A stretch of DNA of 24,266 nt from a virus. The position numbers and the translations under genes are program-made. Location of the stretch: the IMG/VR virus record IMGVR_UViG_3300034167_000147, positions 1-24,266 of that record; one strand, given 5' to 3'. This document shows, one piece after another, positions 3,061 to 17,453 of the stretch (position 1 is the stretch's first letter; every line of letters starts with the position of its first letter). A model generated the notes under the pieces. That model had not been told where the DNA came from. It saw only the letters and a program-made list of their open reading frames with translations, and did not search any database.

Positions 3061-3594
3061 ATGATATTAGATCTACTTTTTTTGAAGCATAAAATGTGGT
3101 TAAATTATATAAAATCGTTTGACTGTTCAGATGCAATTGCTGAGGACTATGTTCAGGAAATGTACATCAAAATATATTTGTATGTTGAGAAAAATGGTAA
3201 CGAATTGATGTATAATAAAGATGAAGTTAATTTTTACTTTATTTATGTAACATTAAAAAATATGTATTACGATGATTTACGAAGAGCCAAAAGAATTAAA
3301 TTAGAACCTATAAGCCACGATATAATTCAAGACGAGTCAGAATACAGCGAGTTTGATTTCTACCTTAAAAACGATGCTATTGAAGCTTGGCACGATAATT
3401 TAATAAATGAGATAAACGAGATAGATGGTTACACCCGAACAAAGGCTAATTTATATTATGTTAAGTTTATTTTCGATATGGTATTTGTAAAAAGAGTATC
3501 AGTAAGCGAATTAAGCAGACGAGTAGGAATAACCTATTGGAGTTTAAGGCACACCGTATTATTAATAAAAAAACAAATAAAAGAGAAAATATGA
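3061..3594 (+). CDS. sigma-70-like factor (regions 2 and 4)
   Basis: The 177-residue product looks like a short ECF-style sigma factor. Residues 28-40 (EDYVQEMYIKIYL) and 57-80 (with FYFIYVTLKNMYYDDLRRAK) fit sigma region 2, which binds core polymerase and the -10 element. The last 32 residues (VSVSELSRRVGITYWSLR and onwards) fit the region 4 helix-turn-helix. Acidic linker residues lie between. It starts directly after the ATPase stop and overlaps the next gene by ATGA. If active, it could direct host RNA polymerase to phage promoters. It could instead be a sigma-derived DNA-binding protein, since the region 2 match is modest. Confidence 0.75.
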   Translation: MILDLLFLKHKMWLNYIKSFDCSDAIAEDYVQEMYIKIYLYVEKNGNELMYNKDEVNFYFIYVTLKNMYYDDLRRAKRIKLEPISHDIIQDESEYSEFDFYLKNDAIEAWHDNLINEINEIDGYTRTKANLYYVKFIFDMVFVKRVSVSELSRRVGITYWSLRHTVLLIKKQIKEKI

Positions 3595-5731: not shown

Positions 5732-6382
5732 ATGAAAATATTAAATTTATATGCTTGTTTAGGAGGCAATCGCTACAAGTGGGATAAAGTAGCAGATATA
5801 GAAGTTACAGCAGTTGAACTTGACCCGGAAGCAGCTCGATTATATAAAGAACGTTTTCCAAATGATACAGTAATAGTAGCAGATGCACATTTATATTTAC
5901 TTAATCATTATAAAGAGTTTGATTTTATTTGGAGTTCACCACCTTGCCCAACACATAGCAGATTTAACTTTTCTATGAAAAATAATTGGGATTTACCATA
6001 TCCTGATATGAAACTTTATCAAGAAATAATATTTTTAAAAACTTGGTTTAATGGAAAATATTGTGTTGAAAATGTTATTCCATATTATGAACCTTTAATA
6101 CCTGCCCAACAAAGAGGTAGACATTTATACTGGACAAACTTCAATTTACCTAATAATATTAATGAACGTAAAAACCCACAATTAAGCAGGGGAACTGCAA
6201 AAGATATTATAGAAAGTTTATCAAAATATCACGATTACGATTTTAATAAATATAAAGGTAAACAAGATAGAAGAAAAATGGCTAGAAATTTAGTAGATTA
6301 TGAAGCTGGATTAACTATTTTAGAAACTGCTTTAGGAATAATAAGAGAAACAAATACAAATCAAATAACACTATTCAAATGA
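5732..6382 (+). CDS. short C5-cytosine DNA methyltransferase-like protein
   Basis: The 216-residue product carries the core motifs of a C5-cytosine methyltransferase: motif I-like LNLYACLGGNRYKW (residues 4-17, S-adenosylmethionine site), SSPPCPTHS (68-76) with the candidate nucleophile C72, ENV (113-115) and QRGR (127-130). The usual motif X (QxGN) is not visible, and the protein is far shorter than typical Dcm-type enzymes (over 300 residues), so the target-recognition region is minimal. Orphan phage enzymes of this kind probably methylate phage DNA to avoid restriction; no cognate nuclease is adjacent. Its leader holds two CACTAAA copies. It overlaps the exonuclease gene by ATGA. Confidence 0.82.
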   Translation: MKILNLYACLGGNRYKWDKVADIEVTAVELDPEAARLYKERFPNDTVIVADAHLYLLNHYKEFDFIWSSPPCPTHSRFNFSMKNNWDLPYPDMKLYQEIIFLKTWFNGKYCVENVIPYYEPLIPAQQRGRHLYWTNFNLPNNINERKNPQLSRGTAKDIIESLSKYHDYDFNKYKGKQDRRKMARNLVDYEAGLTILETALGIIRETNTNQITLFK

Positions 6383-7700: not shown

Positions 7701-8106
7701 AATAGGTAAACCAAAATATATTGAAAGCCCAGAAAAACTAAAAGAATATTTTTCAGAATATCAAAAAGAGACAAAAAGTAAACCATTTATAATTAAAGAT
7801 TGGGTTGGAAAAGATGCAATAGAAATATATAGAGAGAAAGAAAGACCTTTTACTATTCAAGGTTTTGAATGTTGGCTATCCGATAATGATATAATTGAAG
7901 ACTTAGGAGACTATTTAAAGAATAAAGAAAACAGATATACAGACTATGCACCTATCTGTTCATACATTAAGAAACAAACGAGCAAAGACCAAATCGAGGG
8001 TGGAATGGCGGGTATTTACAATCCAAGTATAACACAAAGATTAAACGGATTAGTTGAAAAGACACAAACAGAAGTAAACATAACCAAGTTTGAATTTGAT
8101 GAGTAA
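7693..8106 (+). CDS. terminase small subunit (gp3-like)
   Basis: The 137-residue product precedes the large terminase and overlaps it by 8 nt, the standard position of the small subunit. The segment RPFTIQGFECWLSDNDII (residues about 52-69), then the helix around LGDYLKNKE and YAPICSYIKKQTSKDQIEGG, and the later YNPSITQRLNGLVEKTQTEV fit the P22/Sf6-type DNA-packaging gp3 family, in which a ring-forming helical core recognises the packaging site. The C-terminus is acidic and may contact the large subunit. The assignment rests on position plus a family-like pattern. Confidence 0.8.
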   Translation: MSKIGKPKYIESPEKLKEYFSEYQKETKSKPFIIKDWVGKDAIEIYREKERPFTIQGFECWLSDNDIIEDLGDYLKNKENRYTDYAPICSYIKKQTSKDQIEGGMAGIYNPSITQRLNGLVEKTQTEVNITKFEFDE

Positions 8107-9295
8107 CATAAAAGGATATAAACCACATATAAATCAAAGAGTAATCCACGATAGTATTAATAATGAACCGTATAAATATTACGTTTTAAATATTGGTAGG
8201 CAGTTTGGAAAAACTATGTTGGCTATTAACCAAATGTTATATTGGGCAATTAATAATCGAGGTTGTAATATTGCGTGGGTAACACCAGTTTATAAGCAAG
8301 GGAAAAAAGTATTTGCAGAATTAGAAAAGGCTACTCGATCGAGTGGCTTTTTTGAGTTTAACCAATCCGAATTAACTGTTAAAGGTTTTGGATCTACTAT
8401 ATCTTTTTTTAGTGGTGAACGTCCAGACAATATCAGGGGTAATACATTTGATTATCTTATAATAGATGAGACTGCATTTACACGTGAGGAACTTTGGAGC
8501 GAAGTATTAAGTGCAACTGTATTAGTAAAAGGTAAAAAGGTATTGTTTATATCCACGCCAAAAGGAAAGAACCATTTTTATAAACTATCATTACAACCTA
8601 ACTACGATGAACGTTATAAATACTTTCATTTCACATCTTACGATACACCATTTATAAATGAATTAGATTTAGAAGAAAGAAAAAGAAGTTTACCAAGTCA
8701 TATATTCAAACAAGAGTATTTAGCTGAGTTCTTAGATAACTCAAGCGGTTTATTTGCTAATGTAAGAGAATGTATAAAAGAGCCGTTACAATCAACTAAA
8801 TACTATGGAGGTTTAGATATAGGAAGAGCAGACGATTATACAGTATTAACTATTATAAATGAAAATAAACAAGTAGTAATGTGTGAACGCTGGAGGCACG
8901 ATGAGTGGACCAGAATAATAGACAAAGTAGCAATTAAAATAAATCAATATAATGCAAAGGTTTATGTTGAGGTTAACAATCAAGGTGATGTATTTTTTGA
9001 AATGCTTAAAAAGTTATGTGGACAAAAAGTATATCCATTTGTAACATCAACTAAAACTAAACCTATAATGATTGAGGATTTAGCAGTTCTCTTTGAGCAG
9101 AAAGATATTAGCATATTAAATATAAGTTGGTTAATAGATGAGTTAGAAGCTTTCACGTATGTATATAACCAGACAACAAGAAACGTTCAATATTCAGCAC
9201 CGCAAGGAGTTCACGATGACAGTGTGATTAGTTTATCATTATCTATTCAAGCACATAAAGAGTTGAAAAATAAAGGTACTTATGCGGTAAGATAA
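8099..9295 (+). CDS. terL: terminase large subunit
   Basis: The chosen start is the ATG at 8099, not the in-frame TTG at 8090. The 398-residue protein has a packaging ATPase domain with Walker A GRQFGKT (residues 33-39) and Walker B DYLIIDE (118-124, catalytic E following the D), and a coupling motif ISTPKG (151-156). The C-terminal RNase H-like nuclease domain shows GLDIGRADDYTVL (238-250, D240), a YVEVNNQGD strand and HDD (372-374), giving the metal-binding acidic residues. It pumps and cuts genomic DNA at the portal vertex. It is followed not by the portal, as in most phages, but by a promoter and a small cassette. Confidence 0.95.
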   Translation: MSNIKGYKPHINQRVIHDSINNEPYKYYVLNIGRQFGKTMLAINQMLYWAINNRGCNIAWVTPVYKQGKKVFAELEKATRSSGFFEFNQSELTVKGFGSTISFFSGERPDNIRGNTFDYLIIDETAFTREELWSEVLSATVLVKGKKVLFISTPKGKNHFYKLSLQPNYDERYKYFHFTSYDTPFINELDLEERKRSLPSHIFKQEYLAEFLDNSSGLFANVRECIKEPLQSTKYYGGLDIGRADDYTVLTIINENKQVVMCERWRHDEWTRIIDKVAIKINQYNAKVYVEVNNQGDVFFEMLKKLCGQKVYPFVTSTKTKPIMIEDLAVLFEQKDISILNISWLIDELEAFTYVYNQTTRNVQYSAPQGVHDDSVISLSLSIQAHKELKNKGTYAVR

Positions 9296-9866: not shown

Positions 9867-10517
9867 ATGAGAGTAATAGTACCAACTTCACTAAAAGATA
9901 TATCATTAAGTCAATACCAAACTTACTTAAGAGAATTAGAAAATAATTCAGATGAAAGCGAAGACTACTTTAAAATTAAAAGGCTTCAGATATTTTGTAA
10001 CTTAAGTTATGAGCAAGTAATGAATATTCAATACGGTTCTATTACTGAAATTTCAAATAAAATAGATGAAGTATTAAATAGTAAAAACGATTACGTTGAA
10101 CGATTTATTATTAATGGAATAAACTTTGGTTGGATACCTAATTTAGATGAAATGAATTACGGTGAGTTCTTAGATTTGAATAATAATATATCAGATTGGG
10201 AAAATATTCACATTGCAATGGGTGTTCTTTATCGCCCGATTATCAAAGAGTTACAAAATAAATATGCTATTGAACCATACGCTGGAGACAAGTACCACGA
10301 GCAGTTAAAACATATTAAAATGGATTGCGTTGTAGGAGCAATGGTTTTTTTTTGGAATTTAGGAATGGACTTGGGGATAGCTACAGCGAACTATTTGGAG
10401 GTGGAAGTGAACAAGATGCCTTTGGAGCAACAAATACTTTTGCAAAGGAGTGGAGTTGGTATGCAACAATTGACGACCTCACTAAAGGAGATGTTACAAG
10501 AGATGAAGCAGTTTTAA
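9867..10517 (+). CDS. tail assembly chaperone candidate, zero-frame product (gpG-like)
   Basis: The 216-residue zero-frame protein begins MRVIVPTSLKDISLSQYQTY and contains ISDWENIHIAMGVLYRPI and then VVGAMVFFWNLGMDL. From memory this sequence type (VP.SL.DI.L.QYQ ... LYRPI ... FF.NLG) recurs in Bacteroidota phages just before the tail genes. Together with the -1 frame continuation it fits the tail assembly chaperone of long-tailed phages (lambda gpG), which coats the tape measure during tail assembly. It has no membrane segment. It begins the tail operon, 111 nt after the cassette's last gene. The chaperone role is inferred from the frameshift architecture. Confidence 0.75.
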   Translation: MRVIVPTSLKDISLSQYQTYLRELENNSDESEDYFKIKRLQIFCNLSYEQVMNIQYGSITEISNKIDEVLNSKNDYVERFIINGINFGWIPNLDEMNYGEFLDLNNNISDWENIHIAMGVLYRPIIKELQNKYAIEPYAGDKYHEQLKHIKMDCVVGAMVFFWNLGMDLGIATANYLEVEVNKMPLEQQILLQRSGVGMQQLTTSLKEMLQEMKQF

Positions 10518-10618
10518 ATTTACCTATGCATCAATGTTTAAAAAGAATATGTTATAAGATTGCAAAGGCTAAAATGGAGAATGATAATTTAAAAAAGATA
10601 CAAAGTAATGGCAGATAA
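9867..10618 (+). CDS. tail assembly chaperone candidate, -1 frameshift fusion (gpGT-like)
   Basis: A -1 shift on T_TTT_TTT at 10346-10352 joins residues 1-162 of the zero frame to an 88-codon extension that resumes at 10352 and ends at 10618, giving about 250 residues. The extension contains FAKEWSWYATIDDLTKGDV and LNLPMHQCLKRICYKIAK, which match a W.WY.(S/T)I..L..GD pattern I recall in such proteins. Its frame has no ATG before 10526, well after the WSWY motif, so ordinary initiation cannot make it. The stop overlaps the next gene start by 11 nt. By analogy with lambda gpGT, the T part would bind the tail tube protein. Frameshift efficiency is unknown. Confidence 0.75.
10334..10353 (+). other. 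-1 programmed frameshift site
   Basis: Nine T bases at 10345-10353 contain the heptamer T_TTT_TTT in the zero frame (10346-10352), allowing both tRNAs to re-pair perfectly after a one-base backward slip. AGGAG at 10334-10338 lies 7 nt upstream and resembles the Shine-Dalgarno-like stimulator of dnaX. In Bacteroidota the anti-Shine-Dalgarno is largely occluded, so its effect is uncertain. A downstream pseudoknot was not established by eye. Confidence 0.75.
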
Positions 10619-11081
10619 TTTAAGAGGTGTTGAGGCGATTTATAGAGTAGTACAAGCGTTGAATGACGAACTAATAAGTAATCCATTTTGCAACACGGTT
10701 ACGCTTGGCGAACAGACAGAAATAGACTTGGCAAAGATGACTATATTTCCAATGGCTAATATTACAATGAACAGCGTTACACACAATGACAATAGTTTAA
10801 CTTTTGATTTGACAATTGTAAATGTAGATATAGTTGAAGTATCGAAAGAGCCAATAGAAAATAATATCTACAACAATGATAATATGCTATATATCTGGAC
10901 AAACCAACTGTATGTTATTAATAGATTGATAGGTAGATTAAAGCACGGTTCACTTTACGAAAGCTGGGAATTGAACAACGACCCACAAAGCGAGTTTATA
11001 AATAAAGAGTTTGAAAATATGTTAGCTGGTTTGACAACTAACATTTCAATTACAGTACCGAATGATATTAGTGTATGTTAA
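10608..11081 (+). CDS. tail completion / terminator candidate
   Basis: The 157-residue protein starts inside the last codons of the frameshift product. It shows an early helix GVEAIYRVVQALNDEL, a strand-rich centre with TIFPMANITMNSV and LTFDLTIVNVDIVEVS, and a C-terminal part with LYVINRLIGRLKHGSLYE and FENMLAGLTTNISITVP. A small alpha/beta protein of this length next to a gp10-like gene often is the tail terminator that caps the tube, and proteins with an N.LAG...(I/F).I.VPND ending are familiar in Bacteroidota phages at this place. The assignment is positional and tentative. It overlaps the next gene by 7 nt. Confidence 0.6.
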   Translation: MADNLRGVEAIYRVVQALNDELISNPFCNTVTLGEQTEIDLAKMTIFPMANITMNSVTHNDNSLTFDLTIVNVDIVEVSKEPIENNIYNNDNMLYIWTNQLYVINRLIGRLKHGSLYESWELNNDPQSEFINKEFENMLAGLTTNISITVPNDISVC

Positions 11082-15306: not shown

Positions 15307-15456
15307 ATGATAGAGCATATATTACAATGTCTAAAATTAGATTTAAAATCAGATAGCGAATATATAGCTATTGCAAGAGGTAAAAATAAGTTACCTATGA
15401 CAATTAAAGAGGGATATAAACAACTTAAACAAGAATTGAAATGGCTCAAGAAGTAG
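15307..15456 (+). CDS. 49-aa hypothetical protein before the tape measure
   Basis: Forty-nine codons begin at the ATG 2 nt after the previous stop (leader TAATT) and end at the TAG at 15454-15456, overlapping the tape measure start by 16 nt. The product is MIEHILQCLK..., with YIAIARGKNKLPMTIKEGYK and a lysine-rich helical end. It fills a gap that would otherwise be 136 nt in a block with almost no gaps. Function is unknown. Confidence 0.6.
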   Translation: MIEHILQCLKLDLKSDSEYIAIARGKNKLPMTIKEGYKQLKQELKWLKK

Positions 15457-17453
15457 AAGTAAAAATAAAAGTAAACACATCAGAAGCGGTAACTGGTGTT
15501 AATAAATTAGAACAAGGATTAAAAGGAGCCACAAAAGAATCTACTGCTTTAAGTAATACAATGCAAGGTGGAAAGCAATCTGAATTTATTAATAATTTAG
15601 GTGACGGAATAAGTAAACTTAACCCAGCTTTTGGTTCAGCGGTAAAAGGTGCAAATGGGTTAATTTTGAAGATGTGGGAAATGGTTGCCAATCCAGTTGG
15701 TGCTATTTTAGCTGGTATAGTTGTAACTGCTAAATTTTTATATGAAGCTTTTCAAAGTTCAGTCGCTGGAGGTAAAGAATTAAAAACAATATTCGCTGGA
15801 ATTTCAGCAGTAGGAGAACAAGTAAAAGATGCATTATTTGGTTTAGGTAGAGCATTAATAAATGTTTCAACTGCTGCTTATAAATTTATTACTTTAGATT
15901 TTGCTGGTGCTGCTGAAGATATGAAGAAAGCCAATAACGAAGCAACAGAATCTTATAAGCAATTAGGAAATGCAGTTGATGGAACTACTTTTAAAATAGT
16001 TAAGAATTTAGAAAAGCAACAACAAGCAAATGACAAAGCAAGAAAAGTTCAAGCAGTTGTTCAATCAGAAACTAATAAATTATTAGTACAGTCAAGGGAA
16101 ATTTTAACAGATGAAACTGCAAGTATTAAAGATAAAAAGAAAGCGTTAGAAGATGTTACAAAGGCTGAAATTGCATCAAGTAAAGAGAAAACAAGAATAG
16201 CTGCGGAAGATTTAAGAATACTTAAAGACAAGGCTAAGGCAATGGGTGGCGAAGCTGAAAAGAAAATGAAAGGCGAAATTCGTGATGCCACTATTGCATT
16301 AAATGAAGCGGAAACTGAAAATGCAATGACTGGGATAAAACTTAACAAACAAAAGAAAATGTTAGGTCGCCAAGAATTATCCGATGCTAAAGAAATTGCA
16401 GATGCTAAAAAAGAAGCTTTAAAAACACAACAAGAAGCAGAAAAAACAGCATTAAAAGAAAGAGAAGATAAGGCTAAATTATCATTTGAAAATGAAAAAT
16501 TATTAGTTGATGAACAATTAAAAAATACAAAAATATCTATTGACGAAAAAAGAAATATTGTTTTAAATGATAATAAACTATCAAAAGCAGATAGACAAAA
16601 ATATTTAATTGATTTACAAAATCAAGAAATTGCACAAGAAGATGCACACAATAAAGCAATAGCAGATTTAAACAAAAGATATGACGATGAAAAATTAAAT
16701 CGTTTAGCAGATACAGCTGTAAAAAAAGAACAATTAGATTATGATAGGAAAGTATTAGAAATTGAAAATTTAGCCAAAACAGAATTAGAGAAACAAACAT
16801 TAATTGAAAAATTAGACGGAGAACATAAAGCTAGAATGGGTATTGCTAATACTGCTGATGATAAAATTGCAGCAGATAAAAAGAAAGCGGCTGCAGATGA
16901 AGAAATAGAAAATACAAAAAGAAAATACCAAGCAATGTCTTTAATTGCTCAAAACGGTCAAGCTTTTATAACCGCTATTCAAGATGCTGGATTAGCAAAA
17001 GGAAAAGCTGGTCAGGCTGCAATGAAAGCATTAACACTTATTCAAATTGGAATTGATACAGCACAAGCATTTTCAACAGCAGTACCAATGGCAATTAAGG
17101 CTGGTTCAGAAGCTGCTAAATTAGCTGGTCCAGCTGCTCCAATTGTAGGACCATTAGCAACCGCAGCATCTTATTTAAGTTCGGCTACAATGATTGCATC
17201 AAATATTGCAAAAGCAAAAAAATTATTAGGTAGTGGCGGTGGTGTCAGTGGTGGTTCTGCTGGTGGTGGCGGTGGAATTTCTGCACCTCCTCCCGCAAGT
17301 TTTAATGTTGTAGGAGCTTCAGGAACAAACCAATTAGCACAGACAATAGCTGGACAACAACAACAACCAATACAGGCTTATGTAGTAGCTGGAGCAGTTA
17401 CAACAGCACAAAGTTTAAACAGAAATATCATATCGAGTGCTTCAATGGGTTAA
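15441..17453 (+). CDS. tail tape measure protein
   Basis: The 670-residue product has the composition of a tape measure. An N-terminal hydrophobic segment (residues about 72-106, MVANPVGAILAGIVVTAKFL) precedes a long Lys/Glu/Ala-rich coiled-coil region (about 185-500), then a second hydrophobic stretch near 550-590 (AAKLAGPAAPIVGPLATAAS), a Gly-rich linker and a Gln/Ala-rich end. Such proteins run through the tail lumen and set its length; at about 0.15 nm per residue, a tail near 100 nm would be expected. Unlike many siphophages, it does not directly follow the frameshifted chaperone gene but lies about 5 kb downstream. Confidence 0.85.
   Translation: MAQEVEVKIKVNTSEAVTGVNKLEQGLKGATKESTALSNTMQGGKQSEFINNLGDGISKLNPAFGSAVKGANGLILKMWEMVANPVGAILAGIVVTAKFLYEAFQSSVAGGKELKTIFAGISAVGEQVKDALFGLGRALINVSTAAYKFITLDFAGAAEDMKKANNEATESYKQLGNAVDGTTFKIVKNLEKQQQANDKARKVQAVVQSETNKLLVQSREILTDETASIKDKKKALEDVTKAEIASSKEKTRIAAEDLRILKDKAKAMGGEAEKKMKGEIRDATIALNEAETENAMTGIKLNKQKKMLGRQELSDAKEIADAKKEALKTQQEAEKTALKEREDKAKLSFENEKLLVDEQLKNTKISIDEKRNIVLNDNKLSKADRQKYLIDLQNQEIAQEDAHNKAIADLNKRYDDEKLNRLADTAVKKEQLDYDRKVLEIENLAKTELEKQTLIEKLDGEHKARMGIANTADDKIAADKKKAAADEEIENTKRKYQAMSLIAQNGQAFITAIQDAGLAKGKAGQAAMKALTLIQIGIDTAQAFSTAVPMAIKAGSEAAKLAGPAAPIVGPLATAASYLSSATMIASNIAKAKKLLGSGGGVSGGSAGGGGGISAPPPASFNVVGASGTNQLAQTIAGQQQQPIQAYVVAGAVTTAQSLNRNIISSASMG

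Follow-up and report, generated by a model that had tools for sequence, protein, structure and literature searches.

A conserved T-run between two overlapping frames of Bacteroidota phages points to a probable tail-assembly chaperone pair, probably fused by RNA polymerase slippage

In a 24,266-base IMG/VR virus record (IMGVR_UViG_3300034167_000147, analysed over its whole length and hereafter called the window), we identified two overlapping reading frames, the second in the −1 frame, connected by a run of nine Ts. A run of at least nine Ts was found at the homologous place in every relative recovered by protein searches, and both frames are under purifying selection where they overlap. On balance, we favour reading the locus as a G/GT-type pair, probably a tail-assembly chaperone, in which the fusion would arise through polymerase slippage at the run. 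Expression of the fusion is strongly implied by the conserved sequence features described below.

Layout of the locus

The features of the locus, all on the + strand of the window, are as follows.

9867..10517, +: upstream ORF ("G" part), 216 aa, phrog_32199 family; translated when no slip occurs, with residues 1–162 also present in the fusion
10334..10338, +: AGGAG word 5′ of the run, probably no stimulator
10345..10353, +: slip site of nine Ts, read in the zero frame as GTT TTT TTT TGG
10346..10352, +: T_TTT_TTT heptamer in phase with the zero frame, candidate position for a shift of ribosomal type
10346..10618, +: −1 frame ("T" part), with the WSWY..GD domain and a C-terminal helix; stop codon at 10616–10618
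10354..10517, +: overlap in which both frames read as protein, each under purifying selection in relatives according to phase-specific substitution rates
10608..11081, +: next gene, its ATG lying within the final codons of the −1 frame

The −1 frame from 10346 holds KEWSWYATIDDLTKGD. Its first ATG, at 10526, lies 3′ of the motif, and a TTG at 10325, 5′ of the run, gives a mechanical ORF of 10325–10618. The preliminary description of this DNA had reported the zero frame from 9867 with T_TTT_TTT at 10346–10352, as well as a −1 frame open to 10618 with a WSWY...GD segment and no ATG before 10526; these points held, with the heptamer placed inside the nine-T run and the mechanical start being the TTG. 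A next-gene ATG placed in this way over the end of the −1 frame recurs in several relatives, as would suit ribosomes that translate as far as the −1 stop codon. We propose that the locus should be annotated with a joined CDS (9867–10352 plus 10352–10618, one T being re-read) beside the 216-aa CDS.

Conservation of the run and of both frames

Relatives were collected as 249 loci in all. The 102 that came from a T9 pattern search were dropped from the unbiased count, leaving 147 non-redundant loci found by protein searches, whose retrieval was independent of the run. Among these 147, the homologous run was T9 in 114, T10 in 32, and T12 in one, and none had fewer than nine Ts, although such counts overstate significance because the relatives share ancestry. 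Most loci read the run in the register NTT TTT TTT T. In four loci (L293, L305, L310, and L317), the register is 0 (ATG/TTG TTT TTT TTT CTG): a T has been lost at the 3′ end and one regained at the 5′ end, so that nine are kept. A third register, GCT TTT TTT TTG with exactly nine Ts, occurs in two divergent Flavobacteriales prophages that are 41% identical to each other and were recovered through a match at E 6e-8 and an onward search. We also searched 2.9 million viral contigs by pattern: the exact-T9 pattern gave at least 120 matches, with 80 of the 80 tested being homologues, the exact-T8 pattern gave none, and the T7C pattern matched 33 contigs, none of them homologous.

In all relatives whose contig covers the region fully, the −1 frame stays open for 80–91 aa through F..KWGWYQS(I/L)(Y/F).LA.GD(I/V).., and the WSWY...GD segment that had looked conserved from the window is part of a W-S/G-W-Y...GD domain present in all of them. 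Conservation of the −1 frame begins directly at the run end (FRDRL..Y.ELFG). In the loci inspected, the +1 frame closes within 5–6 codons. The conserved run together with the open −1 frame bears out the programmed shift joining two parts in a G/GT-like architecture that the preliminary description had put forward.

Substitution rates between close pairs indicated coding in both frames of the overlap. Rates at codon positions 1/2/3 were 0.096/0.055/0.300 in the upstream region read in the zero frame and 0.086/0.066/0.273 in the downstream region read in the −1 frame only; in the overlap, numbered in the −1 frame, they were 0.121/0.071/0.134. Across these approximately 170 nt, the third position no longer evolves fast, which shows that purifying selection acts on both frames. 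The zero-frame tail of the relatives mostly extends 57–65 codons from the run start, and the constraint on both frames implies that this tail is itself selected, unlike a mere run-out to the next stop. Given that the run always has at least nine Ts, that the −1 frame is open through the domain, and that both frames are selected, it is close to certain, as judged from sequence, that a G-GT type fusion of approximately 250 aa is made from the locus. As a separate observation, the zero frame of one relative (L042) ends only 10 codons past the start of the T-run, which reflects a genuine premature stop or else an indel introduced in assembly.

The Nonlabens phages P12024L and P12024S were the only relatives in culture that the searches recovered, and both carry T9 and an open −1 frame. 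A profile scan of genome contigs with the zero-frame alignment gave no match; with the −1 part as query, seven contigs of metagenome-assembled genomes (MAGs) were obtained, and the hosts of the MAG loci were mainly Flavobacteriales/Bacteroidota. One T part (L246) lies in a MAG labelled Epsilonproteobacteria and is probably on a mis-binned phage contig.

Mechanism of the frame change

We consider RNA polymerase slippage of the kind described for mxiE the probable explanation of the frame change, and a better one than ribosomal slippage, going by the pattern of conservation across loci. In this mechanism, most mRNA would carry nine Us and yield the 216-aa G protein, while in some transcripts a host-type RNA polymerase would slip at the T-run and insert one extra U. 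Ordinary translation of the U-inserted transcripts would join G residues 1–162 (..GAMVFF) to the −1 frame (LEFRNGLGD...WSWY...GD...) in a protein of approximately 250 aa, and indels leading into the other frame would end in termination within 5–6 codons.

Nine has been given as the slippage threshold, and a run kept in all homologues as the mark of purposeful transcriptional slippage (PMC1088944). A second source likewise uses conservation of the run among all homologues as a criterion and places the RNA–DNA hybrid at 9–10 bp (PMC5009743), matching a run length of nine. The run at our locus is such a conserved A/T run, and runs of this length are avoided elsewhere in phage and host coding sequence. 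In 669 kb of other coding DNA from the loci, T8 occurred 4 times (26 expected), T9 0 times (8.2 expected), and T10 0 times (1.3 expected), so that runs of at least nine Ts numbered 0 against approximately 10 expected. In 606 kb of coding DNA from one host (800 kb sampled), T8 was hardly avoided (33 counted, 38 expected), but we counted only 2 T9 (9.4 expected) and 11 A9 (47 expected). Avoidance of T9 can also stem from replication slippage.

The alternative that survives best, though we regard it as unlikely, is that ribosomes make a −1 programmed frameshift of the classical kind at U_UUU_UUU, as they do in lambda G/GT, with the additional length of the run explained by amino-acid constraint or by higher ribosomal efficiency. 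An in-phase T_TTT_TTT heptamer is present at every locus, ribosomal frameshifting is described as the usual mode for G/GT in tail genes (PMC5009743), and U_UUU_UUU and U_UUU_UUC both belong to the class that is efficient in Escherichia coli (PMC4066793). Amino-acid constraint does account for part of the T conservation, since the run codes for hydrophobic residues in almost every relative, but it does not reach the doubly silent site. Replacement of the last heptamer T by C alters no residue in either frame (Phe TTT/TTC; Leu TTA/CTA or TTG/CTG). It yields U_UUU_UUC, one of the H_HH.U_UU.Y heptamers that are efficient in E. coli (PMC4066793), so that a heptamer would be kept. This change was nevertheless seen in 0 of 91 cases in the run, against C at 90 of 243 matched sites in the rest of the overlap where it is likewise silent in both frames, and the T7C pattern, as noted above, recovered no homologue; the rules of heptamer efficiency applied here are those of E. 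coli, not of Bacteroidota. Furthermore, a heptamer requires seven Ts, whereas the minimum seen was nine in each of the three registers.

The usual stimulators of ribosomal frameshifting were also examined. Shine-Dalgarno-like words 5′ of the run were present in 6 of 88 loci, and we therefore rejected the AGGAG of the window as a stimulator on grounds of conservation. Downstream RNA structure was rejected as well: the mean folding z was −0.15 (n = 78), near the 0.08 of the control region. What is conserved is at least nine Ts in several registers, not a seven-base heptamer, and neither a Shine-Dalgarno-like element nor a structure is conserved with it, which points to slippage by RNA polymerase. 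The preliminary description, which had ascribed the shift to ribosomes on the heptamer with AGGAG as helper, had thus recognised a real and strongly conserved frame transition and probably the right product class, but its Shine-Dalgarno-assisted ribosomal mechanism is probably wrong. Because every run of at least nine Ts contains an in-phase heptamer, ribosomal slippage alone or in addition is possible, long U-runs might favour it, and a mixture of polymerase and ribosomal slippage is likewise possible.

Two further explanations are very improbable. In the first, the −1 part would be a separate gene with an internal start, or would be unexpressed. The GenBank annotation of P12024L and P12024S does place a second gene there, starting from an ATG just 5′ of KWGWY; however, these two phages are the only loci with an ATG between the run and the W-G-W-Y motif. 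Of the 88 loci, 69 have no ATG, GTG, or TTG in this interval and 17 have TTG only, and thus no conserved start for a separately initiated second part was found in the relatives. The −1 frame is also conserved and selected from the run end onward, and that of P12024L is open from its own T9. In the second, phase variation, replication slippage would toggle genomes between fused and unfused states. The length of a T-run can shift in replication (see also the discussion of GeneTack in PMC3711429), but run length changes here only alongside codon changes that preserve the −1 relation (the T9, T10, and T12 registers), and the two parts are in frame in 0 of 147 relatives. A homopolymer sequencing or assembly error splitting one fused gene is refuted for practical purposes, because the identical frame relation recurs in well over 100 independent assemblies, isolates, and MAGs with downstream constraint in both frames, even though homopolymers are error-prone and one-ORF fusions may exist among viral proteins of 226–267 aa that match both part models.

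Product, gene neighbourhood, and known systems

Judged by architecture, a tail-assembly chaperone function is quite likely for the pair. The identity that the preliminary description had assigned is plausible: it draws on the architecture, the neighbourhood of tail and head genes, and family and fold matches, and the last of these were weak. The zero-frame protein matches phrog_32199 (9e-16). Matches to phrog_166, "tail protein", were obtained for 15 of 83 members and were weak (best 1.8e-4), and no sequence similarity to the Pfam chaperone families was found. The AlphaFold2 model of the G part, built from an 82-row alignment, is mainly helical with few strands (mean pLDDT 89). That of the T part (pLDDT 70, approximately 80 in the C-terminal half) has a low-confidence linker followed by a helical domain. 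Sequence and fold searches of the PDB (both parts; the G model) gave nothing significant, and fold matches in BFVD were mostly uncharacterised phage proteins. Foldseek matches to two annotated tail-assembly chaperones were weak (E 0.21, probability 0.82; E 1.4, probability 0.75). Several viral proteins of the one-ORF size mentioned above, which is near the approximately 250 aa predicted for the fusion, match both models, such as A0A516L611 (G, E 5e-9; T, E 2.5e-3); at the level of match scores, this suggests that one-ORF G–T fusions may exist. In the Flavobacterium phage 6H (L325, 9900–10960), a relative of the G part by fold, there is a G-like ORF, but several changes of frame would have to be made to connect it with a T-like part; they are possibly homopolymer sequencing errors in the record.

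The neighbours on the 5′ side are the small and large terminases (large terminase, 8090–9295), and those on the 3′ side are a Neck1-like protein, a probable tape measure, a head protease, and a portal. The likely tape measure, assigned from sequence character, is at 15441–17453, several genes downstream. The pair has the overlapping layout, with its downstream ORF in the −1 frame and a slip site that is conserved, and is not directly 5′ of the tape measure; given this distance, we class it as working like G/GT rather than as a proven member.

With gpG/gpGT of lambda, the pair shares an upstream ORF with an overlapping −1 ORF, a change of frame close to where the upstream ORF ends, and a location in a block of head and tail genes. 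It differs in that the shift of lambda is ribosomal, whereas a T-run of at least nine is conserved here without the stimulators of ribosomal frameshifting; in an overlap of approximately 170 nt in which both frames are selected; and in adjoining the large terminase instead of the tape measure. If the pair works as in lambda, the tape measure would be coated by G, and tail-tube subunits would be recruited by the added domain of the fusion. The coding-strand T-run is shared with mxiE of Shigella flexneri, in which insertion of a single U links a pair of overlapping ORFs (PMC1088944); runs of Tn with n>8 are given for this slippage class (PMC3711429). Slippage has been demonstrated for mxiE, a gene of other function and not of a dsDNA phage, whereas we infer it here. 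In dnaX of Thermus thermophilus and in IS elements, a nine-base A/T homopolymer conserved among homologues is likewise the slip signal (PMC1088944), but slippage in dnaX leads to a shorter product and would here give a longer one.

The Nonlabens phages P12024L and P12024S (Inhavirus) carry the homologous pair at approximately 25% identity, also adjoining the large terminase and with T9 and the open −1 frame. GenBank lists it as two separate hypothetical genes, the shift having been missed; the gene call from the internal ATG in P12024L (L007, 7001–7695) and P12024S (L008, 2001–2695) is probably a misannotation, which recognition of the shift corrects.

G/GT frameshifting is among the most conserved recoding events of tailed phages and has nearly always been treated as ribosomal. 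If polymerase slippage operates here, selection would keep the ratio of the two products and not the ribosomal mechanism, and searches restricted to heptamers with stimulators would overlook or misname such cases. We slightly favour the idea that, throughout a family of Bacteroidota phages with dsDNA and tails, the ratio of the chaperone forms is set by polymerase slippage at T9/T10, with run length as the dial. Our search of the open-access literature found no paper linking polymerase slippage to a tail chaperone, with precedent elsewhere possible, and the portions of PMC5009743 that treat polymerase slippage in viruses list it for RNA viruses.

Several other features of the window were observed. 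It starts within a tandem 15-base repeat (1–290) that reads as a pentapeptide-repeat protein (NLSGSDLSNS...), with a second open frame in the same place (TLAVQ...). An ERF-type annealing protein followed by a DUF3127 protein occupies 1105–2043. The region 5732–6382 encodes a short protein that matches the C-5 cytosine methylase family over just the first ~75 residues of the latter and appears truncated or divergent. At 3061–3594, a small ORF has a weak match to Sigma-70 region 2 (0.007, under the Pfam cut-off), for which a phage sigma-like factor is possible; P12024L has an annotated sigma-70 region 2 gene 5′ of its terminase.
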